This document shows positions 635-21,180 of a DNA stretch of 64,000 nucleotides, one piece after another (the first letter of the stretch is position 1; the number at the start of each line of letters is the position of its first letter). The notes beneath the pieces were generated by a model. It had not been told where the DNA came from. It ran no database searches and saw nothing but the letters and a program-made list of their open reading frames with translations. The stretch comes from an uncultured Pontibacter sp. (GTDB lineage: Bacteria; Bacteroidota; Bacteroidia; Cytophagales; Hymenobacteraceae): NCBI RefSeq assembly GCF_947495565.1, contig NZ_CANLZM010000002.1:124001-188000 (forward strand), read 5' to 3'. A program made the position numbers and the translations under genes.

Positions 635-641
635 TTGTCCC
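617..641 (+). repeat. 25-bp direct repeat, copy 1
   Basis: Seven A residues followed by GAGTGCCGTAATTGTCCC. An exact second copy lies at 1170-1194, 553 bp away, inside the 3' end of the next gene. Copy 1 lies just upstream of that gene's ATG, so the two copies bracket it. Confidence 0.85.
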
Positions 642-670
642 TTGTTTCTTCTATAGAAACAGGCAATTTT

Positions 671-1234
671 ATGCCTATGAGTAAAGATCTACTGCGCTAC
701 GTGAAACTGCCTGTCAAGCCGCTGGTCCGGAAGTACCTGGAGGCGAAGTACGGGGCACCTTTGCGAATTACCAGAAAAACAAACGAGGGGAAAATGCTCA
801 TTTCCCTTTTCCGGAGCATGCAGCATGATGCCCGCTTTGACAGCCGTATGCACGTCTACACGGACGAGATCACAATGGAGGTCAGCGTGAACAAACTTCA
901 CAAGCGCATGCGCGGGCGGCAGTTCACCAGCCGGGCCGTGTTTGACTTCAGCGACTTTGTGGAGACGCAGATCTCCGACAGCTTCAATGCCTTTGCCGAT
1001 GTGCTGCGCTCCACCGGCTACCGCTGGACCGTGAACGACATCTACACCATGTTCATCCAGCGCTACGGCCTAACACCGGATGATATTGCTTTCGAGACGC
1101 TCAAGCGCGGCTACAACCGTTACCGGGACGCCTTAAACGAGGTCAGTGTTATGGAAGTTAAAATAGTTGAAAAAAAGAGTGCCGTAATTGTCCCGCCTAC
1201 TTTGTCCTATGATGAGATGCGTGCCGCAAGCTAA
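671..1234 (+). CDS. Hypothetical phage protein
   Basis: A basic, mixed helix/strand protein of about 187 residues with no motif I recognise. The frame could begin at a TTG at 635, but that codon lies in the 25-bp repeat; the ATG at 671 (MPMSKDLLRY) or 677 is more likely. It precedes the tail-fibre-like genes by only 8 nt and reads in the same direction, so it probably belongs to the same transcript. Its last part (EKKSAVIVPP) is encoded by the second repeat copy at 1170-1194. It could be a structural or regulatory phage protein; nothing seen decides between these. Confidence 0.7.
   Translation: MPMSKDLLRYVKLPVKPLVRKYLEAKYGAPLRITRKTNEGKMLISLFRSMQHDARFDSRMHVYTDEITMEVSVNKLHKRMRGRQFTSRAVFDFSDFVETQISDSFNAFADVLRSTGYRWTVNDIYTMFIQRYGLTPDDIAFETLKRGYNRYRDALNEVSVMEVKIVEKKSAVIVPPTLSYDEMRAAS
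1170..1194 (+). repeat. 25-bp direct repeat, copy 2
   Basis: Exact second copy of the sequence at 617-641. Here it is coding and specifies the KKSAVIVP stretch near the C terminus of the preceding gene. Confidence 0.85.
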
Positions 1235-1242
1235 TTTGCGGC

Positions 1243-4851: not shown

Positions 4852-4894
4852 CCAACCCTGTCCTTTTTTACGCTAGCCTTCAGGCTCACCTTTG
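4852..4894 (+). promoter_or_regulatory. Phage late promoter, copy 1
   Basis: CCAACCCTGTCCTTTTTT at 4852-4869, then 21 nt, then TTTG at 4891-4894, 21 bases before the ATG of the head protease gene. The box and the exact 21-nt distance recur at three other late gene starts. TTTG matches the end of the Bacteroidota -7 element (TAnnTTTG), so it probably marks the core promoter, with the T-rich box in place of a normal -33 element. Confidence 0.75.
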
Positions 4895-4915
4895 CATTGC
4901 AAGTTACCTGAAGCA

Positions 4916-6229
4916 ATGCACGTAAATCCTATCTTATCAGCCATCCTTCGCGGCCCCTGGTTAATAGAGTCTGGCACAGCCAACGCCTTGTTGCCTGTTT
5001 TGGACACGTTAATGCAGGGCCGCGAGTTGGCCCACTCCCAAGAGAAAGTTACAAGTTTCGTCTCTGCCATCTCCATGCAAGGCGGCAAACCCTCTCAGTT
5101 TTCCAGTTTCGATGATGCCCCTGCCGGCTCTGTAGCTGTGATCAACCTGGATGGCGTGATGATGCGGGAAGATTCATGCTTCTATTACGGTACCGAAACG
5201 CTTGCTGCAGCTACAAAAGCAGCCTTCGAGCACCCCAACATAGTTGCCCTTGTAAAGGTGGTTAACACTGGCGGTGGCACTGTAGATGGCACGGAGGCAT
5301 ATGCCCAAGTTTATGGAAGCTCACCTAAGCCTACCGTCACCTACGTGAAAGGCATGATGTGCAGCGCCGGTGCTTGGGTAGGTTTGAAAGGCAAGCATGT
5401 GATGCTGGAGGGCCGCACCACTATGGTAGGCTCGATAGGCACGCAGATAGAGCTGCGCAAGTATAAAAACGATCAGATGGAATCTCATTTGATCCGGGCC
5501 ACCGAGTCGAAAGATAAAAATGAGGTGTACCAGCAGGCCCTGAAAGGCAACTATGAGCCGATCATCACCAAACTCCTGGACCCGCTCAACAGCGTTTTCC
5601 TGCAGCAGGTGAAAGAGGTCCGCGGTGAGAAACTCAACATGGAGAAAAACCCACTGACAGGTGAGGTTTATGTGGGCCAGGAGATCATCGACCGTGGCCT
5701 TGCTGACTCTTTCGGCACTTTGGATGATGCCATCAATCTTGCGCTGGAGTTAGCCGGTGCCACTTCAACTAGCAAATCATCTTCTAATCTTAATCAAAAC
5801 CACATGTTTGGGAAAAACAAGTTTACCGCTATCGGTGCGCTTGCTGGCCTTACTGCAGTAACCGGGGAGCAGATTACAGCTGCTAACGACGAACTGGAGG
5901 AGAAGGGCATCACAGCCGCCGCCCTCATCTCTGCCGAGGATTACAGTGCCCTGAAGGCAAAGGCAGATCAGGCTGATACTCTTTCAGCCGAAAACACGAC
6001 CCTGAAGCAGGGCAAAGAGGCTGCTGAGACCAACGTGACGAAGCTTACGGGTGAGCTGAAAACGGCTCAGGACCTAGCCGCTTCTTACGGCAAACAGCCA
6101 GGTGCCACACCTACCACGCCAGCGCCAAAAGGCCAAGAGCTGGAGGACGAAAATGAAGAGGAGGAGGTTGACGCTGAGGCGGCTCACTTCGCTTCTATCG
6201 GCAACATGTTCAAACCTTCTAAATCATAA
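4916..6229 (+). CDS. Prohead protease (S49/ClpP-like) with scaffold-like C-terminal region
   Basis: 437 residues. The first 290 form an SppA/ClpP-type serine peptidase: VVNTGGGTVDG (oxyanion region), MMCSAGAWVGLKG with the likely nucleophile Ser, and TTMVGSIGTQIEL with a possible Lys/Thr partner region. The last 140 residues are helical, Gln/Glu/Lys-rich, with an acidic tail, as in capsid scaffolds. It would cut scaffold during head maturation and lies just before the capsid gene. I chose the ATG at 4916 because the earlier in-frame TTG at 4892 lies in the promoter's -7 element. Confidence 0.85.
   Translation: MHVNPILSAILRGPWLIESGTANALLPVLDTLMQGRELAHSQEKVTSFVSAISMQGGKPSQFSSFDDAPAGSVAVINLDGVMMREDSCFYYGTETLAAATKAAFEHPNIVALVKVVNTGGGTVDGTEAYAQVYGSSPKPTVTYVKGMMCSAGAWVGLKGKHVMLEGRTTMVGSIGTQIELRKYKNDQMESHLIRATESKDKNEVYQQALKGNYEPIITKLLDPLNSVFLQQVKEVRGEKLNMEKNPLTGEVYVGQEIIDRGLADSFGTLDDAINLALELAGATSTSKSSSNLNQNHMFGKNKFTAIGALAGLTAVTGEQITAANDELEEKGITAAALISAEDYSALKAKADQADTLSAENTTLKQGKEAAETNVTKLTGELKTAQDLAASYGKQPGATPTTPAPKGQELEDENEEEEVDAEAAHFASIGNMFKPSKS
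5804..6229 (+). CDS. Possible nested scaffold protein from an internal start
   Basis: An in-frame ATG (MFGKNKFTAIGAL) follows a Ser/Asn linker and an AT-rich leader, TTAATCAAAACCAC, exactly where the protease domain ends. Initiation here would give a free 141-residue helical scaffold, the arrangement known for lambda C/Nu3. Evidence is positional only. Confidence 0.35.
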   Translation: MFGKNKFTAIGALAGLTAVTGEQITAANDELEEKGITAAALISAEDYSALKAKADQADTLSAENTTLKQGKEAAETNVTKLTGELKTAQDLAASYGKQPGATPTTPAPKGQELEDENEEEEVDAEAAHFASIGNMFKPSKS

Positions 6230-6231
6230 CA

Positions 6232-7158
6232 ATGGCTGACGCTATTAACATCTCAAAAGTAGACCAGTACGCTAAAAAGTATAAATCGCAGCTACTGGCA
6301 CTGGCACTGCTCGATCAAAATGTTTTCGCAGACTTTAATGTGTTGCCGGGCATTAAGGACGAATTTGTGCTCACGACCCTGAGAATGGGCAACGTGGTGA
6401 AGCCTTACACCAAAAACTGGAACCCTAGCACCGGCGGAGAGCTGGAGCCGCGCACCCTGAAGGTGCACCTGGGCAAGGTGGAGCTGGAAGAGGAGCCGCT
6501 GAAGTATAGAACTACTTACCTGGGCTTCCTGATGAAGGCCGGTGTAAACGAAAAGGATCATCCGTTCGAGAAGTTCTTCACAGAGGAGGTAATGCGCAAG
6601 ATGAAGAGCGAAATCAACCTGGAGACAACCTTCAACGGTGTTCGCAACGCTGCCGGCAACTCAGCTAAAGACCTCGCCAACGGCTTTCTGAAAATCATCG
6701 AGGATGAGATCACAGCCTTGAAAGTAACACCTATCGTGACAGGTGTTATTGATAACAGCAATGCCGTGGCCAAGCTGAAAGGCATGTACAAAGGCCTTCC
6801 GAAGCAGTACCGCGAAGTGATGATGAACATCTACTGCTCTTACGAGGATTATGATGCTTACTGCGAGAACTACCAAACCAAAAACGGAGCCCTGCCTTAC
6901 AACACGCAGTACGAGCACGTGTACCTGGAGGGCTCTAACCGAAGAGCTAAGCTGGTACCAAAAGCCGGCTTCGGTGATTCGCGCAGAATTATCATGACTC
7001 CGTTGGAGAATATGTGTATCGGTGTGGACCTGGCTTCTGACCAGGAGAAGATCGGTATTAATAACGCAGATGTTTGGGTGGTTAAGTTCTACGCAGCCTT
7101 CGCCTATGGCCTGCAGATCGCGCAGCTTGATGCCCTGTTTGTAAACGACCAAGCATAA
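6232..7158 (+). CDS. Major capsid protein
   Basis: 308 residues, starting two bases after the protease/scaffold stop. It has the expected size and place (directly after protease-scaffold), a mixed alpha/beta body, and a C terminus typical of capsid P-domains (KFYAAFAYGLQIAQLDALFV). It resembles capsid proteins of Bacteroidota siphoviruses in layout. No separate decoration gene is evident. Alternatives are unlikely given context. Confidence 0.75.
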   Translation: MADAINISKVDQYAKKYKSQLLALALLDQNVFADFNVLPGIKDEFVLTTLRMGNVVKPYTKNWNPSTGGELEPRTLKVHLGKVELEEEPLKYRTTYLGFLMKAGVNEKDHPFEKFFTEEVMRKMKSEINLETTFNGVRNAAGNSAKDLANGFLKIIEDEITALKVTPIVTGVIDNSNAVAKLKGMYKGLPKQYREVMMNIYCSYEDYDAYCENYQTKNGALPYNTQYEHVYLEGSNRRAKLVPKAGFGDSRRIIMTPLENMCIGVDLASDQEKIGINNADVWVVKFYAAFAYGLQIAQLDALFVNDQA

Positions 7159-7164
7159 GGAGGT
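7156..7164 (+). promoter_or_regulatory. Strong Shine-Dalgarno site
   Basis: TAAGGAGGT overlaps the capsid stop codon and lies 8 nt before the ATG at 7173. A full anti-SD match is unusual for Bacteroidota and contrasts with the other genes of this operon. Confidence 0.6.
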
Positions 7165-7172
7165 AATCTAAA

Positions 7173-7484
7173 ATGGCAGATAACAAAGAACTTACTTCAG
7201 AGCAGCAGATTGCTGCCCTGAAGGCTCAACTAGCCGAGCAGAAGCAGCTTAACGCTGAACAAGGGAAAGTAATCGAGGAGCAGCACAACCAGCTGAACGA
7301 GATTGCCTCCAGTGACGCACCTGCAGTGCCTGTTCTAACCATCGATAAGAAGAAATACCAGGTAGTGATCCGCGCTTTCGAATACAAGGGCGTGAAGCAT
7401 ACTGTAAAGTCGCTGTCGGAGGACAAAAACCTGCAGAAGGAGCTGGTGAAGATCAGCTCCGGAGTACTGAAAGAAATTGAGTAA
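7173..7484 (+). CDS. Small phage head-region protein
   Basis: 103 residues: an N-terminal coiled coil rich in Gln, Glu and Lys (about 1-45), then a short beta domain. It follows the capsid gene after a strong Shine-Dalgarno site. Could be a head accessory or assembly factor; I do not recognise the family. Confidence 0.6.
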   Translation: MADNKELTSEQQIAALKAQLAEQKQLNAEQGKVIEEQHNQLNEIASSDAPAVPVLTIDKKKYQVVIRAFEYKGVKHTVKSLSEDKNLQKELVKISSGVLKEIE

Positions 7485-7501
7485 CCTCTAAAGCAAAGAC
7501 A

Positions 7502-8029
7502 ATGACATACGATTTGCAAGATCTGAAAGACCTGGAGGGCAAAAACAATAACGGCGGCGTGAAGACGCGCTTTTACTTCGCCCCTGAATCTGCCTTCGCT
7601 GAGGGCGGCATTCAGGAGGTAGATGCTGACGGCGTGACCATCTCCACCCCTCACGCTTTTAAGCCCGGAGAAGGTTTCTCTGAGATCTACGCCACACTGG
7701 ATGGCGCGGAGCTGAAGCTTGACAGCGTTGGCGAGCGTGACGGCCGTGGTAAGGCCCCTGCCGGTGAGTTCTTTCACCCAGGCAACACCGTGGCCGCCGC
7801 GCAGTTCGACATCGTCTCTAAAAACCGCCCCGGCATCCTGCTAGTGGAGGAAATGGACGGTACCATTGTGCAGTACGGTGCAGCTGGCCTGCCGATTGAG
7901 ATCTCCGGCGCTTATACTTCCGGAAAGCAGTCCGGCACCCGCCGCGGCTGGACCTTCACTGTAAGCGGATACCAAAACGGCATGCAGCATTACACTGGTG
8001 ATATCGCCCTGAAACGAAACGCTGTTTAA
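7502..8029 (+). CDS. Predicted structural protein, possibly tail tube
   Basis: 175 residues with regular beta strands and repeated Gly turns (for example ISGAYTSGKQSGTRRGWTFT). This composition fits a tail tube or head-tail joining protein. It is read from the capsid operon. No other clear major tail tube gene is visible elsewhere, which favours the tail tube option, but this is inference. Confidence 0.5.
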   Translation: MTYDLQDLKDLEGKNNNGGVKTRFYFAPESAFAEGGIQEVDADGVTISTPHAFKPGEGFSEIYATLDGAELKLDSVGERDGRGKAPAGEFFHPGNTVAAAQFDIVSKNRPGILLVEEMDGTIVQYGAAGLPIEISGAYTSGKQSGTRRGWTFTVSGYQNGMQHYTGDIALKRNAV

Positions 8030-8046
8030 CACCCTAATTCAGAGTC

Positions 8047-8241
8047 ATGGAAAAAGCACCGCAATTAAAGCCAGAGGTGGCCGAGAAATATGAACTCGGC
8101 ACCCATCACACCGTGATCAGGAGAGGCTCCAAGGTAATTGACCTGACAGCCCTTACGGTGGCAGAGGCAGACAAGCTGGTAGGGGCCGGCAATTTCCCTT
8201 ACCTGAAGGCAAAGGAGAAAGCCACTGCCAAAGCGAAGTAA
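8047..8241 (+). CDS. Small phage protein
   Basis: 64 residues, Lys-rich at the C terminus (AKEKATAKAK). It is the last gene of the head operon, 26 bases before a terminator stem. The sequence RGSKVIDLTALTVAEADKLVGAG suggests a small folded domain of a kind common in phage head clusters. Function unknown. Confidence 0.6.
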   Translation: MEKAPQLKPEVAEKYELGTHHTVIRRGSKVIDLTALTVAEADKLVGAGNFPYLKAKEKATAKAK

Positions 8242-8267
8242 CAAAGCATGCAACTTTAGCCAAAGCT

Positions 8268-8302
8268 GAGGGCCGCGCCACCTGGTGCGGCCCTCTCTTT
8301 TT
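8268..8302 (+). terminator. Rho-independent terminator of the head operon
   Basis: GAGGGCCGC (8268-8276) pairs with GCGGCCCTC (8287-8295), followed by TCTTTTT. The next late promoter begins directly behind it. Confidence 0.85.
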
Positions 8303-8337
8303 GTCCTTTTATCAGGCCTGCTATACCTCCATTTTCG
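8301..8337 (+). promoter_or_regulatory. Phage late promoter, copy 2
   Basis: TGTCCTTTTAT at 8302-8312, 21 nt, TTCG at 8334-8337. The CCAACCC half of the box is absent but the distance is exact. The ATG of the next gene is only 5 nt downstream of TTCG, so its mRNA may be nearly leaderless. Confidence 0.65.
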
Positions 8338-8341
8338 CTGC

Positions 8342-8926
8342 ATGGAAATCCGGAAATGGCTTGACAGTGACAGAGACTATGAACAGGGCCGGCTGCTGTT
8401 TGAAAAACACAGCCTAAACCAGGCGCTCAAGAACCTCTTTGCCCTGGGCCCGGGCGTCTATAACTCCAGGAAGCTGGAGGAGGAGCTGGAGAAGCTCCAG
8501 GAGCCGGAGCCTCCGAAAGCAGTTGCACCAGGTGCCGCCCCAGCTAAGCCAGAGCACCGCGATGTGAGCCTGCAGGTGTGGGAGCAGCTCGTGCCATTGC
8601 TTGATGAACAACGGGCGCTGCACACGGCGCTGAGCCTGCTCCCGACCAACGCCGCTAGGTTGAAGCACGCCGTCCGGATCATGGAACTGGCCGACCGGCT
8701 GGCCCCGCTCTGGGACACCTACCACTACGCCAAGGAGCATGGCCGGCTTCCGGAAGTCGAGGTGCAGCACCCGGTACCGAAAAAAGAGGCAGACCAGCTG
8801 CGCCGCCTGAACAACCTGCGCACTTACCGCTCCAGGTACCGGGACCGCCCGGACAAGCTTGCCGAGATAGAGCCAGAAATCAAACTATTAGAAGAGGCAC
8901 TGAAAAATGTCAATCCAGAAGTATAG
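8342..8926 (+). CDS. Phage protein upstream of terminase
   Basis: 194 residues, mostly helical and charged, with a Pro/Ala linker near residues 55-70 and a basic helical C-terminal half (LRRLNNLRTYRSRYRDR). The ATG at 8342 is chosen because the earlier in-frame start (8285) lies upstream of the promoter. It overlaps the presumed small terminase gene by 20 nt. A DNA-packaging role is plausible from position only. Confidence 0.6.
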   Translation: MEIRKWLDSDRDYEQGRLLFEKHSLNQALKNLFALGPGVYNSRKLEEELEKLQEPEPPKAVAPGAAPAKPEHRDVSLQVWEQLVPLLDEQRALHTALSLLPTNAARLKHAVRIMELADRLAPLWDTYHYAKEHGRLPEVEVQHPVPKKEADQLRRLNNLRTYRSRYRDRPDKLAEIEPEIKLLEEALKNVNPEV

Positions 8927-9551
8927 ACCCGCCAAACGCACGCCGGTGGAGAAGGAATCCACCATCGACCGGCTCCACACCTACCTGGCCTTGGATAACG
9001 AGGAGGAGGCAGAGCATTACCTGACAGAGCATGAAGAGAAGGTGCTGGCCCGGTACTTCTCCATATCAGCACTTTCCGACAGGGGCATGCCGACTGAAAA
9101 GATGATCCGGAAGCACTGCAAGAAGTATAACCTGCACCGCTCCACCGCCTTCCGAGACCTGACGAACTCGCAGGAGCTTTTTGGCAATGCCTCCCAGGTA
9201 AGCAAGCAGGCCAAACGCTATGCCGTAGAGCAGCTGGCCAGGCGGGGCTATGAACAGGCCGAAATAATGGAGGATGCCCGCGCCATGGCCCAGCAGGTGC
9301 GCAACATGATCATGATTAACCGCCTGGATCAGGACGATTCCAACGCTGTCGATCCAACCCGCATCCAGCCGCCTACGCTGGTGCTTCAGGTTTCGCTTCC
9401 GGAGGGAAAGGCTGCCACTTTCGATGTGAATAAGCTGAAGGATATCAAAGACATCTCCTATGAGGATGTGCTGGAGGGCTATGAAGAGGGCCAGCGCAGT
9501 GACCGGCAGATGGAGAAGTACCTGGATGAACTGGAGAGCGAGCGCGAGTAA
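8907..9551 (+). CDS. Putative terminase small subunit
   Basis: 214 residues with a helix-turn-helix-like stretch around 45-90 (MIRKHCKKYNLHRSTAFRDL), a helical middle and an acidic C terminus. It overlaps the large terminase start by one base (TAATG). Small subunits bind the packaging site and sit just before the large subunit, as here. The family itself is too diverged for me to name. Confidence 0.65.
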   Translation: MSIQKYRPAKRTPVEKESTIDRLHTYLALDNEEEAEHYLTEHEEKVLARYFSISALSDRGMPTEKMIRKHCKKYNLHRSTAFRDLTNSQELFGNASQVSKQAKRYAVEQLARRGYEQAEIMEDARAMAQQVRNMIMINRLDQDDSNAVDPTRIQPPTLVLQVSLPEGKAATFDVNKLKDIKDISYEDVLEGYEEGQRSDRQMEKYLDELESERE

Positions 9552-11200
9552 TGGAAGAAACCGAATACAAGGCCTATAAGCCCAACCCGGCCCAGTTGCG
9601 CACCCTGCTCACCCCTCGCAGCTCAGGCACGTCTGTTTGGGGTCGTGGTACCGGAAAATCCTCCGATATCGCCAATTTGATGCATACCATTGTCACCACA
9701 ATGCCGCGCAGCCTGTGGCTGATCACTGGGCGCTCTTACATGCAGATGCTTACCCGCACGCTGCCTTCCACGATTGCCTCTCTGGAGCGCCTGGGCTATT
9801 ACCGTAACATTCACTATTTCGTCGGGCGCAAGGCACCGGATAACTGGCGCTGGGACCTGCCTCTGCAAACACCGCTCAAGTACGACCATTTCATCCATTT
9901 CTTCAACGGTACCGGGTTTGTGATGGTCAGTCAGGTCGGAGGTGGCGGTTCCGCCCGTGGTCTCAACACAGATGGCTCTATTACAGACGAAAGCCTGTTA
10001 TTAGACAAAGAGGCCTATGATGAAGAGGTTGTGCCTACCCTCCGGGCCAATAAGGATGTATTTGGGCACCTTCGCATGCACAGGGGTCATTTTCACCACA
10101 CCTCCATGCCTTACGGTGACCAGGGGCGCTGGCTCCTAGACCAAAGCAAGTACCTGGAAGATAATTACGACTTTTTGGGCATCACCAATGAGATGCTCGA
10201 TCTGCAGCTCAAGTTTATAGAGAGCCGCGACAGGCAGCACCGGCTAAATCTATGGCAGGAGATCAAGAAGCTTAAAAAGCAGCTTAAATTCTATCCAGAT
10301 AAGAATGGGCGCCTCTATACTGAGGCGAACGTATTTGACAACCTGGAGAACATCCCGCTGGCTTACCTGCAGGAGCAGTACACTGTGCTGGCTAAGTTTG
10401 CTTTCCTGGCAGAGGTACTGAACAAGCGGCCTGCCAATGTAGAGCATGGCTTTTACCCTTACCTGGATCTGAAGACGCACGCCTATGATGGCCATAGCAG
10501 CAGTTATCTGGATAGCTTCCACTATGACCTGAAGAAGCTGGGTGTGGTGGATAGCCGCATGGATGGTGATGTAAACGACCTGCTCCCGCTCCGGATCACC
10601 GCTGACTTTGGTGCCCGCATCACCACCAGCGTCGTAGCCCAGAGCCTGCCCAAGGAGTACCGTTTCCTGAAAGGCTTCTATGTAAAGCACCCTTTGCTCA
10701 TTAAGGATATCGTGAATAACATCACCACCTACTATAAGCACCACACCAATAAGCACATCTACTTCATCAAGGACAATGAGTATGGTGATAAGCGCAATGC
10801 TAACTCCAAGCTCACCTATAACCAGGAGTATGTGTCGGAGCTGCGGAAGGCAGGGTGGCGTGTCAGTGTGGTAGACCTGGGGCGTATACCAGACTATGAT
10901 GTGCGCTACCTGATTGCCCAGGACTTCCTGAAGGTGAAGGATCACTTCCAGCAGCTGCCACTGATGCAATTCAACCGGCACAACTGCAAGGATGTGCTCA
11001 CAGCTATGTCGCTTACCCCTATTAAGTATGGGCGCAAAGGGCAGCTGGAGAAAGACAAAACCAGTGAACGCCGTAAGTCCACACCGGCCCAGGAGGCCAC
11101 TCACTTTGCCGATAACTTCGACCTGCACATGCTCTCGATAGGGCGCCATGAGATGATGCCGCTGCCTGATCTGTCGGAGCTAATCGTTACCGGTGCCTAG
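9551..11200 (+). CDS. Terminase large subunit
   Basis: 549 residues. Walker A is GRGTGKSS (about 31-38); an acidic Walker B-like ITDESLLL sits near 140. The C-terminal half has the spaced Asp residues of an RNase H-like nuclease, for example RITADFGARITTS near 350. It powers DNA packaging and cuts the concatemer. It follows the presumed small subunit directly and closes its operon before a terminator. Full-length for the family. Confidence 0.85.
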   Translation: MEETEYKAYKPNPAQLRTLLTPRSSGTSVWGRGTGKSSDIANLMHTIVTTMPRSLWLITGRSYMQMLTRTLPSTIASLERLGYYRNIHYFVGRKAPDNWRWDLPLQTPLKYDHFIHFFNGTGFVMVSQVGGGGSARGLNTDGSITDESLLLDKEAYDEEVVPTLRANKDVFGHLRMHRGHFHHTSMPYGDQGRWLLDQSKYLEDNYDFLGITNEMLDLQLKFIESRDRQHRLNLWQEIKKLKKQLKFYPDKNGRLYTEANVFDNLENIPLAYLQEQYTVLAKFAFLAEVLNKRPANVEHGFYPYLDLKTHAYDGHSSSYLDSFHYDLKKLGVVDSRMDGDVNDLLPLRITADFGARITTSVVAQSLPKEYRFLKGFYVKHPLLIKDIVNNITTYYKHHTNKHIYFIKDNEYGDKRNANSKLTYNQEYVSELRKAGWRVSVVDLGRIPDYDVRYLIAQDFLKVKDHFQQLPLMQFNRHNCKDVLTAMSLTPIKYGRKGQLEKDKTSERRKSTPAQEATHFADNFDLHMLSIGRHEMMPLPDLSELIVTGA

Positions 11201-11224
11201 AGCCGAAGCACATTGCACCTCTCC

Positions 11225-11258
11225 AAAGCCGCAGCCAACCAAGTTGCGGCTTTTCTTT
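11225..11258 (+). terminator. Terminator after terminase genes
   Basis: AAGCCGCA (11226-11233) pairs with TGCGGCTT (11245-11252), followed by TTCTTTTC. It separates the packaging operon from the cargo gene at 11366. Confidence 0.8.
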
Positions 11259-11365
11259 TCTCCGGAGCGCCTCAGTCATATATCCCGAAAACAGGGGGTG
11301 CAATTGCGAAAAATCGTTAGGGCACGTCGGGGTTAATCGTCCGGCTTTGAGACAGATTTTTGTAG

Positions 11366-12040
11366 ATGAGAGGGCCTAAGCCGTATAGATCAATTAGTTG
11401 GCAAAATAATTTTGAGACTAGTATTTTAAGCGTATTTTCGGACATGGAGAACACTACTGAAGGGCACTTCTTCTTAAATTTATGGAACCGGGCACCGGGC
11501 AAAGGCTCTAAGTTTATGCAGCTAACGGCCAAGTTCAAAGGTGTTGATAGCCTGGGGTACCAACACGGAAAGTCTTATCAGTTGTCTGTTGCTTTGATGC
11601 CATTCCCTCCAAGGGTAATAATAAAAAGATTATCTGGTGGAGGGCTTTGCCCTTATGAGTCCCTGAATGCCTTTTACGAGAATTGGTACTTGTTAAGCAC
11701 AGGCGACGCTAAACCTCAAATTGATCTTATTTCTATTGATGAAGCATTCCGACTGCGATCAAATGATGTTTCTGATAAGCTCATCAAGCAGCTTAAAGAA
11801 GCGCAGGAAGCTATCGTTAAACACATTTTAACTCACATGCTCAGAAGAGAGCCGGAAGAATCCGATTATCGCAGAGTAAAGATATTGCTAAAGGATTCTT
11901 CAATGGAGCGAGATGTGTTTTTTGATGAGATTCATATTGGTAGTATGATGTTTGTAAATGATGGAACCACTCACACTTCTGATATGGCATTTGCAAACTG
12001 TACCCGAATCATTTTTCAGCCTAATCGGAACTATAGATAA
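11366..12040 (+). CDS. Hypothetical cargo (moron) protein
   Basis: 224 residues, lower in GC than the genes on both sides, and lying between two terminators, the classic layout of a phage cargo gene with its own promoter. No motif recognised; the middle is helical (residues 130-160). It lacks the late promoter box seen for its neighbours, so it may be expressed in the lysogen. Resistance to superinfection is a common role of such genes, but nothing in the sequence shows it here. Confidence 0.65.
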   Translation: MRGPKPYRSISWQNNFETSILSVFSDMENTTEGHFFLNLWNRAPGKGSKFMQLTAKFKGVDSLGYQHGKSYQLSVALMPFPPRVIIKRLSGGGLCPYESLNAFYENWYLLSTGDAKPQIDLISIDEAFRLRSNDVSDKLIKQLKEAQEAIVKHILTHMLRREPEESDYRRVKILLKDSSMERDVFFDEIHIGSMMFVNDGTTHTSDMAFANCTRIIFQPNRNYR

Positions 12041-12098
12041 CGCATAAACGGCGCCGGCCACTTCCGGCATAAATAGATGGGCAACAGCCCAAGAGCAG

Positions 12099-12131
12099 CA
12101 GCCCCAGCCAAATTGGTTGGGGCTTTTTTAT
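12099..12131 (+). terminator. Terminator after the cargo gene
   Basis: AGCCCCA (12100-12106) pairs with TGGGGCT (12118-12124), followed by six T. The third late promoter starts 15 bases downstream. Confidence 0.8.
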
Positions 12132-12145
12132 TCCCCTTTCCCCCT

Positions 12146-12188
12146 CCAACCCTGTCCTTTTTTCCGCTGGCATAGCCCCGCATCTTCG
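12146..12188 (+). promoter_or_regulatory. Phage late promoter, copy 3
   Basis: CCAACCCTGTCCTTTTTT at 12146-12163, 21 nt, TTCG at 12185-12188. Identical 18-base box and spacing to copies 1 and 4. The first start codons lie 3-9 nt after TTCG. Confidence 0.8.
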
Positions 12189-12193
12189 CAGTG

Positions 12194-12541
12194 ATGATGC
12201 AGCCAGCCACCATACGTTTAAAGGAAGTCCTGCGGCGCATGGACTCCAGCGCTGAGGAGTTCTCCATTGCCTACGTCAAGTATAACAAGCGGCAGAAAAC
12301 CGGCGGCGACATTGCCCGCTTTGAGCGGTGCATTTGCACCGGTACCAGGGCGAAAGGCACACGCCAGGAGAAAAGCCGGCAGACGCTGGTAAAGCCTCAG
12401 GTAGAGGCAAAAAAGCAGGCACGCAACCCGAACCACTTCGTGAACGCCACCCGCAACCTGCAGGTGCTGCCAAGCTTTGTGATCCGCAAGCTCCACATCT
12501 GGCTCATCATCGAATTCAACGGCATTAAAGTGATTCTATAG
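12194..12541 (+). CDS. Small basic phage protein before portal
   Basis: About 115 residues, strongly basic in the centre (KYNKRQKTGGDIARFERCI, then several Lys/Arg runs). ATG codons at 12194 and 12197 both fit; the GTG at 12191 would lie at or before the likely transcript start. It ends right before the portal gene. Possibly a DNA- or RNA-binding packaging factor; not recognised. Confidence 0.6.
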   Translation: MMQPATIRLKEVLRRMDSSAEEFSIAYVKYNKRQKTGGDIARFERCICTGTRAKGTRQEKSRQTLVKPQVEAKKQARNPNHFVNATRNLQVLPSFVIRKLHIWLIIEFNGIKVIL

Positions 12542-13879
12542 ATGAGCGTTTACGTTTCAGACGATTTGACCATGGCCGCTAGTGGTAAGTATATCTTTAC
12601 CACCAACGCGGCCGCAGGCCCCGCCCCCGGGAGTCCCGGCAAAACCGAACTGGGGGCTGCTCCGACCTCCCCGGTGGAGAAAGACACAAGCAGCGGGGAA
12701 ATTGCTAACTGGGGCGATGACAACCAGTTTCCCACACAGGTAAGGCGTGAGGCAGAGGAAAGTGAGATACTGCAGGAAAACCTGGGATGGAAAGCCGATG
12801 CCTGGTACGGCGGGGGCATTGTGTATGGCCTGGTCGATATCGATGCGCAAGGGGAAGAGACGTTTACCCGCGTCCGGATTCCGGAGGTGGAGGCCTTTCT
12901 GGCCAGAAGCCGCCGCTATGCCTACGAAACGCTGCTGGCCCTCTCCTACTTTGCCAACGGCTTCGGAGAGTTCATCCTGACGAAAGACCGCAAAGAGATC
13001 TGGTCTATCTGCAACCAGGATACCGAGTACTGCCGCTACAAAAAGCCGGATGCCAAGGGTGTGATCTCGCACATCTACATTAGCGCCAACTGGGCAAACA
13101 CCTCCAGGCCGGACGATATTGTACCGGTGCCGGCCATTGATCCTTATTTCGACACGCCGGATACTATACGCGAGCGCACCGACAGCTGGAAGTACATGTA
13201 CCCGGTGGCCATTCCTTCACCAGGTAAGACACTCTACCAGCTGGCTCGATGGAACGCCATACGCCGCTCCGGGTGGCTGGCCCTCCTGAAGAAGATTCCC
13301 AACTTCAAGCTGAACATGTTCGATCACCAGCTTTCCACCAGGCACATGGTGGAAGTGCACCACCGCTATTGGGAGTGGAAGTATGGCGATTGGGAAACCA
13401 AAGACAAAAAAGAGCGCCAAAGCATCATTTCCGAAGAGGTCAAAGCCTTTGATAAGACGATGGCAGGCGTGGATGGGGCTGGCAAGTCTGTCTTCAGCAT
13501 CACGTTTCCGGACCCACAGGACCCGAGCAAAACCATCAGCGCCTTCAAAATTACCTCGATCGATGACAAGCTGAAGTCAGGCCTGTATGTGGAAGACTCA
13601 CAGGAGGCGGCTAGCTGGGTGTACACGGCCATTGGCGTGGCCCCTACCCTGCGCGGCATCCACCCGGGCAAGGAAATGGGTGGCGGCTCCGGCTCCGATG
13701 CCCGCGTTGCCTTCAACAACTTCATTTCTACTTCCAAATTCCCGCAGGACCTGGTGCTGGAGCCGCTGCACTTTGTCCGAGACTACAACGGATGGCCTGA
13801 GAACCTCCAGTTCAGATTTGCCGCGCCGCTGATCATGACGCTCGACTCCGGAAAATCTTCCCAACAGGAAACAAAATAG
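12542..13879 (+). CDS. Phage portal protein
   Basis: 445 residues. A low-complexity N terminus is followed by a portal-like core (EIANWGDDNQFPTQVRREAE, about 57-76) and a C-terminal part naming gene order and size consistent with portals of Bacteroidota siphoviruses. It forms the dodecameric DNA channel of the head. It follows the small basic gene with no gap and precedes a connector-like gene. Portal lying after capsid and terminase is not the usual order. Confidence 0.7.
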   Translation: MSVYVSDDLTMAASGKYIFTTNAAAGPAPGSPGKTELGAAPTSPVEKDTSSGEIANWGDDNQFPTQVRREAEESEILQENLGWKADAWYGGGIVYGLVDIDAQGEETFTRVRIPEVEAFLARSRRYAYETLLALSYFANGFGEFILTKDRKEIWSICNQDTEYCRYKKPDAKGVISHIYISANWANTSRPDDIVPVPAIDPYFDTPDTIRERTDSWKYMYPVAIPSPGKTLYQLARWNAIRRSGWLALLKKIPNFKLNMFDHQLSTRHMVEVHHRYWEWKYGDWETKDKKERQSIISEEVKAFDKTMAGVDGAGKSVFSITFPDPQDPSKTISAFKITSIDDKLKSGLYVEDSQEAASWVYTAIGVAPTLRGIHPGKEMGGGSGSDARVAFNNFISTSKFPQDLVLEPLHFVRDYNGWPENLQFRFAAPLIMTLDSGKSSQQETK

Positions 13880-13881
13880 CC

Positions 13882-14856
13882 ATGCTGAACATCACGACAG
13901 AAGACCTTAAAAAGCGTATTGGCGTAACGGCCACTGCCAAAGCCCTGGAGCTTTACCAGGCAGATTTTTTCCAGGTGCAGGACGATATCCTGCGGGTAAG
14001 CTTCGGTGAGGACTTTTACCTGGACCTGAGCCAGAAGTATAACGAGGGGCTGGCCACTGAGAAACAGCTGGAGTTGGTGGCGATCCTGCTGGATGCCATC
14101 GTACCCATGGCACAGGGCAATCTGCTGCCGCTACAGGCACTGCAGATCTCGGACCGGGGCGTGCACATTGTCAGCAACGCCAACGAGAAGACGCCTTTCG
14201 AGCACCAGATCAAGGCGGCGCAGGCCTCCTTTGCCCACAAAGGCTTCCAGGCGATCGAACGGGCACTGCGCTTCCTGGAACGCCACATCGATCACCCGGA
14301 CTTCGAGCTTTGGGCCACCTCAGAGGCCTGCACGCTGTTCAGACAGCACACCATCTCCAATGCCGAGGAGTTTCAGAACGGCTACAGCATCGGAAACAGC
14401 CGGCGCACCTACATGGCCCTGCTGCCAACTGTCCGGAAAGTGGAGGACTTCTACCTGGAGACTGCGCTGGGCGGTGACTTCTGGTATGAGCTGAAGGAGC
14501 AGCTGAAAGACCGCGACGTGCACCCGGATAACCTCTACCTGCTTAACCGCTTTATACGCCCGGCCGTGGCGCTCCTGACCGTGGCGGCAGCGCTGGAGGA
14601 GGGCGGCTATACCTTCAAAACAGATGCCTTCCTGCTGAGCGATTCAGCTGAGCCGGTGGATGCCGCTATCCTGAACAGCAAACGGGCCAAGGCCGAGAAA
14701 GACGGCAAGGCATACCTTTCCAAGCTAACAAACTACCTGAACGCAAACGCCTCAGCTGAAAAGTACGCCACCTACTTCGCCAGCAGCACCTACCTGGCTC
14801 CAGGCTCAGAGGTAAGCCGCAACGAGCCAGAGAGCCGCATCTACGGATTTTACTAA
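13882..14856 (+). CDS. Connector-like protein (DUF6712-type)
   Basis: 324 residues, mostly helical, beginning two bases after the portal stop. Its features (MLNITTEDLKKRIG start, repeated helical hairpins, LLPTVRKVEDFYLE) match a family I associate with Bacteroidota phages next to portal genes. A head-completion or connector role is inferred from place and helical make-up. Confidence 0.55.
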   Translation: MLNITTEDLKKRIGVTATAKALELYQADFFQVQDDILRVSFGEDFYLDLSQKYNEGLATEKQLELVAILLDAIVPMAQGNLLPLQALQISDRGVHIVSNANEKTPFEHQIKAAQASFAHKGFQAIERALRFLERHIDHPDFELWATSEACTLFRQHTISNAEEFQNGYSIGNSRRTYMALLPTVRKVEDFYLETALGGDFWYELKEQLKDRDVHPDNLYLLNRFIRPAVALLTVAAALEEGGYTFKTDAFLLSDSAEPVDAAILNSKRAKAEKDGKAYLSKLTNYLNANASAEKYATYFASSTYLAPGSEVSRNEPESRIYGFY

Positions 14857-14875
14857 CCCTTATACTTTTAGCCAA

Positions 14876-15277
14876 ATGGATTTAAGAATCAAACGCCAGC
14901 CTTCCGACAGCAAGCAGACGCTGGGGCAGATGGAGGTGGTGAGAAATGACCAGGCTGTCTTCAGCTGTAAAACGCTGGAGCTGGCCTGGCGAAACAATGA
15001 GCCGCAGATCTCCTGCATCCCGACGGGTACCTACCAGGTTGTAAAGCGCTGGTCTCAAAAGTACGGCAACCATTTCCATGTGCTGGGTGTCCCGGGCCGC
15101 AGCTATATCCTGATCCACGTGGGCAACTACTACACTGAGATCCGGGGCTGCATTTTAGTCGGCACCACCCACACCGACATCAACAGAGACGGCTACCGCG
15201 ACGTGACAAGCAGCAAAGCGACGCTGAACAAACTACTGGAGCTGATGCCGAAGTCCTTCACCCTTACCATCAACTAA
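14876..15277 (+). CDS. DUF5675-type protein, likely lysis/peptidoglycan enzyme
   Basis: 133 residues with the pattern SYILIHVGNYYTEIRGCILVG (about 76-96, written here in part): a His then Gly-Cys-Ile like the catalytic HG...GCI of L,D-transpeptidases. The protein has no signal peptide, so it would depend on the holin next door. The ATG is preceded by ACTTTTAGCCAA, a motif repeated before 15839. It opens the lysis cluster. Confidence 0.65.
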   Translation: MDLRIKRQPSDSKQTLGQMEVVRNDQAVFSCKTLELAWRNNEPQISCIPTGTYQVVKRWSQKYGNHFHVLGVPGRSYILIHVGNYYTEIRGCILVGTTHTDINRDGYRDVTSSKATLNKLLELMPKSFTLTIN

Positions 15278-15280
15278 ACC

Positions 15281-15814
15281 ATGCGCCTGCTCACCCTGCT
15301 CCTGGTCCTGACTCCTTTTCTTTCGGAAGTGGGCCAGGTCTTCAACAAGTATGTCTTTTCGGATTGGGACTTTGTGCCTTTTCTGGCTGTGGCCATCACC
15401 ATCGATACCCTGACCGGTGTGTACGTGAATGCCAAGCTGGGGCGCATCCACAGCTTCCGGATGCGCTCGCTGTTCGAGAAGCTGCAGATGTACGTGGTCG
15501 GCCTGATCATAATCCATGGCCTGGCCAGTCACCTGGTGGACGGATCACCAAACCAGTTGGTGCAGCTGATCGTGCCCTTCGGCAAGGGTGCTTTCTACTT
15601 CTACATGCTGGCCTGTGAGGCTATCTCTGTCGAGGAAAACCTGCAGCGCATCGGCAAAGGCTACCTGCCCAAGTGGATCAAGACCAAACTGATGGACTAC
15701 AAGGAAACAGGCAGAGTAGAGCAGCGCACGCCTCCACAGCCGGCCACACCCTCCGAGGCTGGTTATGCCTACACCGAGGCCGGCTGTGCGGATGGCGATT
15801 GCGCAGATCATTAA
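15281..15814 (+). CDS. Phage holin
   Basis: 177 residues with three to four membrane segments (for example LLTLLLVLTPFLSEVGQVF, VPFLAVAITIDTLTGVYV, VGLIIIHGLASHLVD). The DTLTG motif after the second segment and the basic IKTKLMDYK end are typical of the holin_4_1 family. It would form the membrane lesion that releases the lysis enzyme. The Glu/Ala-rich, Cys-containing tail is variable. Confidence 0.85.
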   Translation: MRLLTLLLVLTPFLSEVGQVFNKYVFSDWDFVPFLAVAITIDTLTGVYVNAKLGRIHSFRMRSLFEKLQMYVVGLIIIHGLASHLVDGSPNQLVQLIVPFGKGAFYFYMLACEAISVEENLQRIGKGYLPKWIKTKLMDYKETGRVEQRTPPQPATPSEAGYAYTEAGCADGDCADH

Positions 15815-15838
15815 TCTTCAACTAAACTTTTAGCCAAA

Positions 15839-16192
15839 ATGAAAAACCTCTTACTAAAACTGCAACAGCTCCTGTTCCGGTTTCTTTACCCGCTGGCATA
15901 CCCGCTGCTGATCCTGGTGCATATCATTCACGGTGCCTGGGCTGTGGGGCTCCTGGCCTTTTTCGGGCTGGTACCAAATGAGAAGCCTAGTTACTTCATC
16001 GGGATTCCGATCGTAGTGGTCGTGCTGTTCTACTTCTACCCAAGGCCAAAGCGGAAGAAGGATCCGGTGCAGAACACGCCTCCCCTGGGCACGCTCCCTC
16101 CAGTTGGGCCACCTGTCAACTTTCCGACTGACCCGAGTGAGGTGTTCCCGAGTTATCCGTCTGGTACCAGTGAGAAGGGAGGTGCACAATGA
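15839..16192 (+). CDS. Membrane protein of the lysis cluster
   Basis: 117 residues: two hydrophobic segments (about 12-45 and 52-68), then a Pro-rich soluble tail. It is translated after an ACTTTTAGCCAAA leader identical to that of the DUF5675 gene. Its stop overlaps the next gene's start. It could be a second holin or an accessory; I do not recognise the family. Confidence 0.65.
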   Translation: MKNLLLKLQQLLFRFLYPLAYPLLILVHIIHGAWAVGLLAFFGLVPNEKPSYFIGIPIVVVVLFYFYPRPKRKKDPVQNTPPLGTLPPVGPPVNFPTDPSEVFPSYPSGTSEKGGAQ

Positions 16193-16626
16193 TGCCTGCA
16201 GCTACCGCTATTTTGCTGATAGTTGTTCTAGCAGCCATCTTCGGCTTTATCGAGGCCTGTGCGGATGATAATATCATCGACACAGCTTCTGCCAGGCTGG
16301 ACCGGAAGAAATTCCACCTGCTGGGCTGGACGCGCCGGGCGTTTGTGATCTGCGCTGCAGCACTGGTGCACTTCGGCTTTGCCTACATTGCCTTGGCGAC
16401 TATATCCCTTGCTGCGGTTTCCTTCTGGCTTGTGTTTGAAGCGGTTATTTCCCATAAGATCAAGGGCAGCATCCTGTTTGTAGGATCCTCAGCCAATTCA
16501 GATGTGATCATGCGCCGGATTGCCTGGTTGGCGGATATGGAGCCGGAAGAAGTAAAAGTGGCTGCTATGCTCATTGCCTTTTGGGCGGCTGTGGCCATTG
16601 CCTCCACTCAATTCGTTGCGCTATGA
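16189..16626 (+). CDS. Membrane protein of the lysis cluster
   Basis: 145 residues with three hydrophobic segments (about 4-22, 50-80 and 122-140). It overlaps genes on both sides (ATGATG at 16189, ATGA at 16623), so translation is coupled. Position between holin and the lipoprotein suggests holin-like or antiholin function, which the sequence does not prove. Confidence 0.65.
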   Translation: MMPAATAILLIVVLAAIFGFIEACADDNIIDTASARLDRKKFHLLGWTRRAFVICAAALVHFGFAYIALATISLAAVSFWLVFEAVISHKIKGSILFVGSSANSDVIMRRIAWLADMEPEEVKVAAMLIAFWAAVAIASTQFVAL

Positions 16627-17321
16627 GATACCTGATACTGATTCTCTGCCTGCTGCTGGCATCGTGCCAGCGGGGGCCGGTCAGCTCCTCGCTGACTGAT
16701 ACGCCGGATGCGCTGAAGCACCTGCCTCCTGGTACCAGCCTGGACTTTGGAGATCTCCGCCTCGATATCGTGGCTGGAGATAAAACAGTTGTATCGCAGC
16801 GGAAAGCTAAGGCTGAGCCTGCCATCAAGTGTAAAGACTGCTTTAACACCGATAACAGCGACCGCAGCAAGACGAAGGATAAGAGCGAGACCACGACAAA
16901 GGATAAGTCTAAAACCAAAGATAATAGTGATACCACGGTAAAGAATAAGCCGGATAACTCGCAGCTGAAGAAAGCCAAGATAGACAAAAGCGTGAGCATG
17001 GGTAAAGCGTACAGTTCCTGGTTTAAAGGCTTGCTCACGAAAGTGCTCTTCTGGCTTGCGGTAACTGCCGTTGTAGTGCTGCTCTTGCTCAGGTACACGC
17101 CTCTGGCCAGGATCTTCTTTATACTTCTGATCGGAGCTATACTGGCCAGTTGCTCTCAAACCTTCTGCCCTGCCTACGATGGGCACCGAAAACCACGCCA
17201 CAAGCCCACTTTCCTGAAGGATCACGGACATCAAAAGTACAAGTATAGCGACGCTGCCCGCCGGGCCGCCGAAAAAACGGATGCAGAGCTTTACCTCTCT
17301 GCACTGAAGCTACAACAGTAA
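16623..17321 (+). CDS. Spanin-like lipoprotein with two lipobox motifs
   Basis: 232 residues. The ATG at 16623 gives a clean lipoprotein signal (MRYLILILCLLLASC). A long Lys/Asp/Thr/Ser-rich region follows, then a membrane segment (FWLAVTAVVVLLLL, about 143-156) and directly after it a second lipobox-like signal (IFFILLIGAILASC) and a CPAY motif. Outer-membrane lipid anchor plus membrane segment is the layout of unimolecular spanins, which fuse the two membranes at lysis. It closes the lysis operon. It may be a fusion of two lipoproteins. Confidence 0.6.
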   Translation: MRYLILILCLLLASCQRGPVSSSLTDTPDALKHLPPGTSLDFGDLRLDIVAGDKTVVSQRKAKAEPAIKCKDCFNTDNSDRSKTKDKSETTTKDKSKTKDNSDTTVKNKPDNSQLKKAKIDKSVSMGKAYSSWFKGLLTKVLFWLAVTAVVVLLLLRYTPLARIFFILLIGAILASCSQTFCPAYDGHRKPRHKPTFLKDHGHQKYKYSDAARRAAEKTDAELYLSALKLQQ

Positions 17322-17359
17322 AAGCAAAAGCCCCGGCACACCACCGGGGCTTTTGCTTT
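17321..17359 (+). terminator. Strong terminator after the lysis operon
   Basis: A perfect 16-bp stem: AAAGCAAAAGCCCCGG (17321-17336) with CCGGGGCTTTTGCTTT (17344-17359), loop of 7. The next promoter box starts two bases later. Confidence 0.9.
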
Positions 17360-17360
17360 C

Positions 17361-17403
17361 CCAACCCTGTCCTTTTTTCGGGGGGGCAAACCCGCCAATT
17401 TCG
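17361..17403 (+). promoter_or_regulatory. Phage late promoter, copy 4
   Basis: CCAACCCTGTCCTTTTTT at 17361-17378, 21 nt, TTCG at 17400-17403. ATG of the first tail gene follows at 17422. Confidence 0.8.
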
Positions 17404-18261: not shown

Positions 18262-18264
18262 ACC

Positions 18265-18378
18265 ATGTTAAGATACGCCATCCTGTACACCGCCATAGTC
18301 TTCCTACTTGGCCAGCCATTTAGCTGGATATGGTTCTTTACTTTCCTATTGATAGGGGCGCTGTTTGAAGAGGACTAA
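18265..18378 (+). CDS. Tiny membrane protein
   Basis: 37 residues, almost all hydrophobic (MLRYAILYTAIVFLLG start, ending in LFEED). It fits without overlap between two tail genes (4 nt after the upstream stop, 12 nt before the next start). In many tail operons the second reading product of the chaperone gene occupies this place, so a small accessory is possible. Confidence 0.55.
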   Translation: MLRYAILYTAIVFLLGQPFSWIWFFTFLLIGALFEED

Positions 18379-18390
18379 AGACGAAATCCA

Positions 18391-20900: not shown

Positions 20901-20904
20901 TCAG

Positions 20905-21177: not shown

Positions 21178-21180
21178 GCT

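Follow-up and report, generated by a model that had tools for sequence, protein, structure and literature searches.

In phage T4, the 'MotA box' substitutes for the -35 element of a promoter whose -10 element is retained. Phage Mu relies on C and Mor which, like other small late activators, are DNA-binding proteins that come from the end of the preceding phase and serve several late promoters, and phages of Firmicutes carry late activators of the RinA/ArpU type, encoded by the phage and sited before the packaging genes. In one account of the T4 middle promoters (PMC6755090), phage proteins are described as redirecting the host RNA polymerase, with AsiA assuming the role of sigma region 4; another paper (PMC7366714) gives the sigma-ABfr promoter of Bacteroidota as TAnnTTTG at -7 and TTTG near -33. 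For the tailed phages of Bacteroidota, neither a description of late transcription control nor a late promoter of the present kind appears among the open-access matches listed (as titles and the starts of abstracts, with subscription papers lying outside), and the paper on phage Leef_1 (PMC8776804) contains no word beginning with 'promoter'.

A prophage within the 64,000-nt stretch of DNA analysed here (the 'window') carries repeated boxes that are almost certainly phage late promoters, together with a gene, F6, whose product is the candidate reader of those boxes. The arrangement resembles T4 MotA/AsiA (PMC6755090) by analogy only, in that phage proteins steer the host polymerase to phage promoters; it differs in the sequence of the box, the phylum of the host and the class of genes concerned (late, not middle), and the F6 profile has no sequence match to any PDB chain at E <= 1. 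The proposed role of F6 is also reminiscent of Mu C/Mor, being that of a small phage protein, produced as the preceding phase closes, that would act at several late promoters, but the phage box has no evident dyad, and the single structural match, of the F6 domain to Mor (1rr7), is weak (Z 3.1 over 55 residues, 7.7 A). Similarly, F6 would share with the RinA/ArpU-type proteins its encoding by the phage, ahead of the packaging genes, although no such family is found among the Pfam and PHROGs matches of 26 F6 members.

Box copies and gene blocks in the window

The exact 18-mer CCAACCCTGTCCTTTTTT begins at 4852, 12146 and 17361 on the + strand of the window (three matches against 0.08 expected, a count reached in 0 of 100 shuffles), and the copy at 8302 is shortened, with TGTCCTTTT alone retained. 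The three exact copies and one shortened copy of the preliminary description were thereby recovered, as was its constant interval of 21 nt to TTYG, which corresponds to counting from where the T run ends: measured from the start of TGTCC, the distance is exactly 32 nt in all four boxes (TTTG at 4891-4894; TTCG at 8334-8337, 12185-12188 and 17400-17403). Across the whole genome (G000), the 18-mer occurs five times with up to 2 mismatches, as the 3 exact copies and 2 CTCTCC look-alikes elsewhere, and TGTCCTTTT-N19..25-TTYG occurs eight times, with a 36-nt register that is common to only the four prophage copies. The heptamer CCAACCC was rejected as part of the core, being private to the window phage (its nearest relative, L007, has AACCC); the element conserved across phages is TGTCCTTT, in the form TGTCCTTT-N21-yAnnTTYG.

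Each box lies ahead of a late block (protease/capsid, terminase, portal and tail, respectively; Table 1), as originally proposed. At the second, TTCG is followed by 4 nt and then by the ATG, a leaderless arrangement; at the third, 5 nt intervene.

Table 1. Coordinates of promoter-like sites, F6 and terminators in the window
Feature	Position	Strand	Details
Putative late promoter 1	4852..4894	+	CCAACCC + TGTCCTTTTTT (4859-4869), -7 AccTTTG ending 4894; protease/major capsid block (~4917-8241) downstream
Putative late promoter 2, upstream part shortened	8302..8337	+	TGTCCTTTT ... AttTTCG; F9, TerS, TerL block (8342-11200) downstream
Putative late promoter 3	12146..12188	+	CCAACCCTGTCCTTTTTT ... 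AtcTTCG; F8, portal, adaptor, holin-like block (12194-17321) downstream
Putative late promoter 4	17361..17403	+	CCAACCCTGTCCTTTTTT ... AatTTCG; F5 and tail block up to tape measure gene (17422-25758) downstream
Weaker box-like site	1203..1238	+	TGTCCTATG, TTTG at 32-nt offset, 4 nt, ATG at 1243
Degenerate box-like site	636..671	+	TGTCCCTT ... AatTTTA, directly 5' of F6
F6, candidate late activator	677..1234	+	185 aa, alternative ATG at 671; no described family
Terminator	8268..8295	+	strong hairpin ahead of promoter 2
Terminator	12100..12124	+	strong hairpin ahead of promoter 3
Terminator-like stem	17321..17359	+	16 bp, U-rich 3' arm, -28.5 kcal/mol, z -8.6; ahead of promoter 4

Strong hairpins precede the boxes at 8302, 12146 and 17361, in agreement with the three terminators noted previously; the last of them does not appear in the terminator scan, an omission that probably reflects the location of its T run inside the stem. 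Since the late blocks are isolated by terminators, each would need a box of its own. Many boxes stand directly behind a terminator-like T run, from which one might suppose that the repeat is a mere terminator tail copied inside the phage. However, there is no terminator at 4852, where the upstream DNA folds no better than shuffles, and the spacing from box to -7 element is constant despite unrelated flanks, so that this explanation is scarcely credible.

Two further sites in the window were missed by the earlier reading. The weaker one, at 1203, scores 15.4 (the best score from 10 shuffles being 15.7, so that it stands at about the chance maximum), and the degenerate one, at 636, scores 10.3, inside the chance range; the position of the latter makes autoregulation of F6 possible, although the site is weak.

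The box among phages of Bacteroidota

The preliminary description would have been refuted by the lack of such a box in related phages, which is not what is seen. The TGTCCTTT core or a variant of it is present in all 17 relatives selected by their portal gene (15 of them distinct, and two with spelling variants), and 47 of 48 TGTCCTTT/TTYG pairs in the window and these loci (duplicates L026 and L029 counted) share a single spacing. The core also occurs, with the virion module in common, in 35 of 38 IMG/VR contigs, which had themselves been picked by the box pattern; outside their anchor boxes, 20 pairs have the main spacing, 5 are one base shorter and at most 2 fall at any other. Over the units as a whole, 165 boxes were counted, against 0-3 in 20 shuffles. 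Three of the 38 contigs lack both the module and F6 and have 1-2 sites each, which were taken as chance; G046, G047 and G025, regarded as chance matches, do not enter the site counts. (The logo, the shuffle and PWM counts and the upstream distances were obtained with G123 and G177 left out, and G177, where F6 sits at the contig end, is also outside the spelling and leader counts; G006 entered one clustering step only. A protease query against viral contigs gave no match.)

Among phages chosen by F6, and not by the box, clear boxes are found in G225 and Ingeline_2, and looser variants in G123 and 6H. The strict box is absent from eight phages that lack F6 and the module, and the strict pattern likewise scores zero in F6-bearing 6H and Leef_1. 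In 6H there are three TGTCTTAAA sites at spacings of 31, 31 and 32, two ending in TTTG and one in TTAG, and in Leef_1 TGTCCTTTT is kept ahead of six genes, with -7 ends of TTGC, TTTA, TTAG or CTTG. The G123 variant stands ahead of four late genes, with TTTG at 32 fitting in only one, and a search of that phage for spaced words found none that were prominent.

As claimed at the outset, TTYG corresponds to the last part of the -7 element of the host. TTYG itself formed part of the search pattern, but the A of TAnnTTTG, which the pattern left unconstrained, is correctly placed in 93% of 189 sites. The leading T is present in 40% of the 189 (and in 11 of 56 sites from GC-rich phages, where base composition contributes), so that the sites follow TAnnTTTG with a relaxed T. 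An ATG lies exactly 4 nt past TTYG in 57 of 229 sites, against 3% of 4762 controls. The phage sites are therefore like the sigma-ABfr promoter (PMC7366714) in having the A and the TTTG of the -7 element, and unlike it in the relaxed T of TA and in the region near -33, where TTTG is not found at these sites and TGTCCTTT, at fixed spacing, occupies the expected position, as had been suggested. Together, the conserved A and the placement of the ATG make them look like host sigma-A -7 promoters in which the -33 element has been replaced.

A box lying over the -33 position would equally suit repression, and it might instead be a repressor operator, or an architectural or packaging signal. That reading is very improbable: the frequent loss of the leading T is what is expected of activator-dependent promoters, and the distribution of sites (1-9 in each of the 38 box-pattern contigs, at least 3 in 28 of them, and all on one strand in 29 of the 31 with at least 2) argues against an operator or packaging signal. 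Nor is the box a feature of host chromosomes, where a stricter pattern (one that demands TTT upstream and that misses the window's own sites) found 23 sites in 22 of 296 genomes, not above the reversed control (34), with no two of them near each other. Several copies, on one strand and before late blocks, and no such feature in host chromosomes, are the marks of activator-dependent late promoters, and the original assignment to a phage-specific class of late promoter is supported.

F6 and other candidate readers

The spelling of the box is coherent within each phage: all 4 sites of L024 have TGTCT, all 4 of L025 have (T/C)GTCCTTCR and all 6 of G225 have TGTCCTATT, and at positions 4 and 6-10 the mutual information between phage and base is higher than in any of 1000 shuffles. 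This coherence makes a phage-encoded reader likely, and to that extent the activator postulated in the preliminary description stands; the early genes that it had named as places to look do not. Against F6, which is present in 32 of 32 box-bearing units, the genes at 33881 (F40), 34186 (F264) and 31695 (F50) were found in 8, 2 and 7 of the 32, and each was rejected.

F6 is also missing from only one of the 48 module-bearing units, a fragment, but it travels with the entire virion module, so that co-occurrence alone cannot single it out. F3 (at 1243), the portal, DUF6712, F5 and further module genes co-occur about as widely, the members of TerS contain what was judged by eye to be a helix-turn-helix-like stretch, and small early genes may slip past a homology search. 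It is thus conceivable, though we consider it unlikely, that the same promoter is served by a different reader (F3, TerS, a fast-evolving early protein or a host factor). For F6, a box is seen within 5 kb on the upstream side in 7 of 45 cases, whereas for nine other core families (F3 outside that count) the corresponding figures run from 28 of 47 to 47 of 48, so that these families are mostly behind the box and F6 is not; F6 is not cleanly box-free either, since a degenerate box lies within 120 nt upstream of 9 of 45 F6 genes. Neither TerS nor TerL was found in G019 or G030 (possibly incomplete contigs), both of which have boxes and F6, and a host reader is at odds both with the coherent phage spellings and with the host-chromosome counts given above.

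Among the 26 F6 members, neither Pfam (E <= 0.1) nor PHROGs (E <= 0.01) gave a match to the sigma-70 family, no Mor/C sequence profile appeared among the Pfam matches up to E 0.1, and the two PHROGs matches are both unnamed. F6 is predicted to have a strand-helix-helix N-terminus (strand 6-13, helices 15-25 and 36-46) and a three-helix C-terminal domain. A Foldseek search against the PDB returned nothing at E <= 0.001, and the fold matches are weak, with a best Z of 4.5 for the whole protein and 5.6 for the domain. For the N-terminus, comparison with the strand-helix-helix dimer fold of ribbon-helix-helix proteins gave MJ0366 (2efv; Z 4.2, 79 residues, 3.4 A), a protein of that kind, and the top rows for the domain mix unrelated proteins with DNA-binding domains (StbA, Z 5.5; a Mu transposase subdomain, Z 4.4).

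The best match of the whole-F6 model is region 4 of sigma-S (6uu7; Z 4.5, 56 residues, 4.3 A; 6omf gives Z 3.5). This weak match, and a box that overlaps the -33 position at a single spacing and orientation, would suit F6 as an alternative sigma factor in its own right, or as the agent of a T4-like takeover of sigma region 4, and not an added activator. With the C-terminal domain alone, however, the top match is unrelated and that to sigma-S drops to Z 3.6 in a different region, so that identification with sigma region 4 was not stable between models and is not adopted here. The host -7 element is moreover retained with its A, from which it would follow that host sigma region 2 is still in use; F6 as a sigma factor, or as the agent of such a takeover, is improbable.

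A proposed mechanism and its reach

The reading we prefer, with a probability of roughly 0.6, is that of late promoters built on the host -7 element in which TGTCCTTT is read by a phage protein, most likely F6 as the late activator. The boxes would act as late promoters in the window prophage and across a large group of Bacteroidota tailed phages: yAnnTTYG would be read by the host's RNA polymerase carrying the primary sigma factor, and a DNA-binding protein made by the phage, probably F6 (the last conserved gene ahead of the late region), would read TGTCCTTT at about -39 to -32, in lieu of the -33 element, and recruit the polymerase. Many late mRNAs would start at the ATG or one base earlier, and in a minority of phages a degenerate box would perhaps provide weak positive feedback on F6. 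The element, its fixed spacing, its match at -7, the gene blocks that follow and its co-occurrence with the F6-bearing module can be read directly from the DNA; activation, the positions of the starts and the role of F6 as reader are what we infer from them. A more tentative and rather doubtful extension is that F6 is the founding member of a new family of transcription factors through which phages reprogram the Bacteroidota RNA polymerase, standing in for sigma region 4 at the -33 position, with phage-specific spellings and promoters that are mutually orthogonal phylum-wide.

The particle-building genes of many Bacteroidota phages and prophages thus appear, from comparison of their sequences, to be switched on via a shared signal at a fixed distance from a host element. 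The motif allows late operons and probable transcription starts to be recognised by sequence alone in phages from human faeces, from sea water and from Hymenobacteraceae, and F6 offers one protein to test. One virion module and related promoters join the Hymenobacteraceae prophages, Leefvirus, Duneviridae and a supposed cyanophage, and, if F6 proteins and box spellings pair up, they would provide orthogonal switches for the genetics of Bacteroidota.

Anatomy of the probable late promoter

The repeat described earlier, an 18-mer that is exact at three sites and shortened at a fourth, was confirmed in the window sequence, as was its fixed offset (TGTCC starts 32 nt ahead of TTYG in all four copies); strong hairpins precede three of these four boxes, in agreement with the claim that three follow terminators. 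A pattern search found the register of these boxes nowhere else in the whole 4.52-Mb genome. Behind them is encoded a head maturation protease (PHROGs E 3.6e-45), and the boxed blocks also include portal (PHROGs E 5.3e-13), holin-like (E 6e-5) and tape measure genes. The names ‘TerL’ and ‘major capsid’ (family F4) were transferred from matching genes of the Mea-Yong924-1 record, while ‘TerS’ was assigned by gene order and appearance (that record applies TerS to a neighbouring gene).

Features of the window and of Mea-Yong924-1
Feature	Sequence	Position	ATG past TTYG (nt)
F6	window	677-1234	
Weaker box	window	1203	4
Box	window	4852	
Protease-leader inverted repeat	window	4894-4919	
Box	window	8302	4
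Box	window	12146	5
Box	window	17361	
Gene crossed by minus-strand box	window	36105-36662	
Minus-strand box	window	36692-36657	
F6	Mea-Yong924-1	about 8977-9450	

Across 189 sites in 49 units (each unit being one such phage sequence), 93% carry an A at position +29, which had been left free in the pattern; judged by sequence, this A together with TTTG is the known -7 element of Bacteroidota promoters, whose consensus is TAnnTTTG (PMC7366714). When A..TTYG was located on the same strand, the spacing was 32 at 156 sites and 31 at 9, with no more than 2 at any other value; opposite-strand counts reached at most 3 at any distance. Two contigs that resemble each other, G045 and G049, have the spacing of 31 at most of their sites, as though the promoter had shifted by one base along with its reader within the same phage. 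An ATG lies exactly 4 nt past TTYG at 57 of 229 sites, as compared to 3% of 4762 control elements; if TTYG occupies -7 to -4, in keeping with the published position of the element, the mRNA at these sites would start at the ATG or one base upstream.

An inverted repeat, GCATNG...CNATGC, spans the last TTTG base to the start codon of the window's protease gene, and is shared by 8 or more of 26 leaders of protease genes (window and relatives); some inverted repeat of 6 or more is present in 14 of the 26, versus 1 of 32 leaders of F8, the family preceding the portal. Because its left arm begins upstream of the expected start site, the repeat may serve as an operator in the DNA instead of forming a hairpin in the RNA. 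Separately, a well-scoring minus-strand box, TGTCCTTTTTT...TATTATTG (score 21.8 versus at most 15.7 for shuffles), points back across a gene and is a possible antisense promoter.

Distribution and spelling of the box

The expectation that related phages should carry the box was borne out in relatives selected by portal protein rather than by box: all 17 such loci (nine from IMG/VR and eight from Pontibacter and Hymenobacter genomes, with L026 and L029 apparently duplicating L009 and L015) contain it or a variant form, with unchanged spacing. Fifteen carry TGTCCTTT; L024 displays the variant TGTCT at four sites, and L025 has TGTCCTTC at three sites and a fourth beginning CGTCC. In the window and these loci, duplicates included, 47 of 48 TGTCCTTT...TTYG pairs within a 10-39 nt range share one spacing. 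When all 6-mers at a fixed distance before TTYG were counted, part of the box (or of its variant form) ranked first in 15 of 19 sequences; individual values are modest (corrected log10 p -0.8 to -4.2), and the weight of the ranking lies in agreement among sequences, not in single p values. The box did not rank first in Leef_1 (because of its differing -7 element), G123 (a variant box), L013 (a single site) or L027.

A pattern scan of IMG/VR returned at least 120 stretches, and 38 of the contigs so identified were searched at full length, yielding 138 sites versus 6 for a reversed control pattern. Since each contig was picked by one box, only additional sites count as evidence (and a few records repeat an end); three or more sites are present in 28 of the 38, and all boxes lie on a single strand in 29 of the 31 having two or more. 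The virion module is found in 35 of 38, and their hosts, which the records do not name, are inferred to be Bacteroidota. When the chromosomes of 296 host genomes were searched with a stricter pattern, one that fails to match the sites of the window itself, 22 genomes contained a total of 23 sites; the reversed control pattern gave at least as many.

Mea-Yong924-1 (MZ447863) was deposited as a Microcystis phage, yet has a Bacteroidota-type virion module. Its five TGTCCTT sites are extended upstream by a common sequence (TTAACACGC or a single mismatch to it), with TTTG at 32 in four and CTTG in one; judging from these sequences, it may really infect a Bacteroidota bacterium that accompanies cyanobacteria in culture. 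The near namesake Mae-Yong924-1 is reported to have lysed 6 of 14 cyanobacterial strains (PMC8875630), and no word starting ‘bacteroid’ occurs in that paper.

Box spelling is consistent inside one phage and differs from phage to phage: at positions 4 and 6-10, mutual information between phage and base was higher than in any of 1000 shuffles (213 sites, 50 units). Because phage kinship and base composition add to this signal, it supports, rather than proves, a phage-encoded reader.

F6 as the candidate reader

The nominated activator, F6 (about 185 residues, of no described family), was found by profile search in all thirty-two box-bearing units, which have one virion module in common, and in 45 of 51 units of a larger set. 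Three of the six exceptions have none or almost none of the module, and are taken to be chance box matches; G038 is a 26.5-kb contig from which F4 and the protease are also missing; and the remaining two are truncated loci, in whose genomes the portal has F6 approximately 12 and 15 kb upstream (the contigs being probably the same, judged by coordinates). A 77.5-kb contig (G002, loci L211-L214) carries two copies of the virion module, with a separate F6 and set of boxes for each, and is probably two adjacent prophages.

Co-occurrence cannot single out F6 from the virion module; in these sequences, gene order alone appears to separate them. The 5 kb upstream of F6 contain a box in 7 of 45 units; for the nine other core families the corresponding counts range from 28 of 47 (F4) to 47 of 48 (portal). 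The first box falls 0.6-1.1 kb past the F6 start, immediately behind the gene, in 11 of 45 units, and F6 has the same orientation as the boxes everywhere except in G029. The Mea-Yong924-1 F6 gene lies one gene past the primase, about 3.6 kb ahead of the first box and 10 kb away from the protease gene, which F6 usually precedes.

When genomes were selected by F6 and then examined for boxes, four of the 296 from the phylum qualified: the source of the window; G225, which has TGTCCTATT six times at spacing 32; G123, with CGTCCTA ahead of four late genes (TTTG at 32 in one of these) and three CGTCCTA sites at 32 within the late region; and G177, where F6 sits at a contig end. Among 11 other Bacteroidota phage records, F6 matched Flavobacterium phage 6H and Cellulophaga phage Ingeline_2, both of which possess the virion module. 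Ingeline_2 has two boxes of the strict pattern, after F6 and before F9, the family preceding the terminase genes; 6H lacks the strict box despite its F6, and carries three TGTCTTAAA sites, one following F6 and one each ahead of the protease and F9 (spacings 31, 31 and 32). Eight of the nine F6-negative records, searched in full, have no F6, module or strict box, and contain one to six loose matches each. Three human faecal contigs (two found via portal, one via F6) all carry box sites and module genes, and two carry F6. In Leef_1, TGTCCTTTT is conserved ahead of six genes; the strict box is absent because its -7 ends differ (TTGC, TTTA, TTAG or CTTG in place of TTTG).

F6 has no notable sequence match in Pfam, PHROGs or PDB. 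Its structure model is confident (pLDDT 90.4), and the sole viral structure match at E <= 0.001 is an uncharacterised 157-residue Leef_1 protein (E 1.6e-6), taken from its length to be gp39, which is located two genes ahead of the protease. Arginine 148 (numbered from 677), in the last long helix of F6, is conserved in 49 of 51 sequences.

A degenerate box occurs within 120 nt upstream of 9 of 45 F6 genes, versus 63 of 1973 control starts (Fisher p 1.8e-5). In GC-rich phages, the T of TAnnTTTG is present in 4 of 5 degenerate F6 boxes as compared to 11 of 56 late boxes. These small numbers fit an arrangement in which the F6 promoter would be basal, read by the host and weakly self-activated, and the late promoters would depend upon F6.
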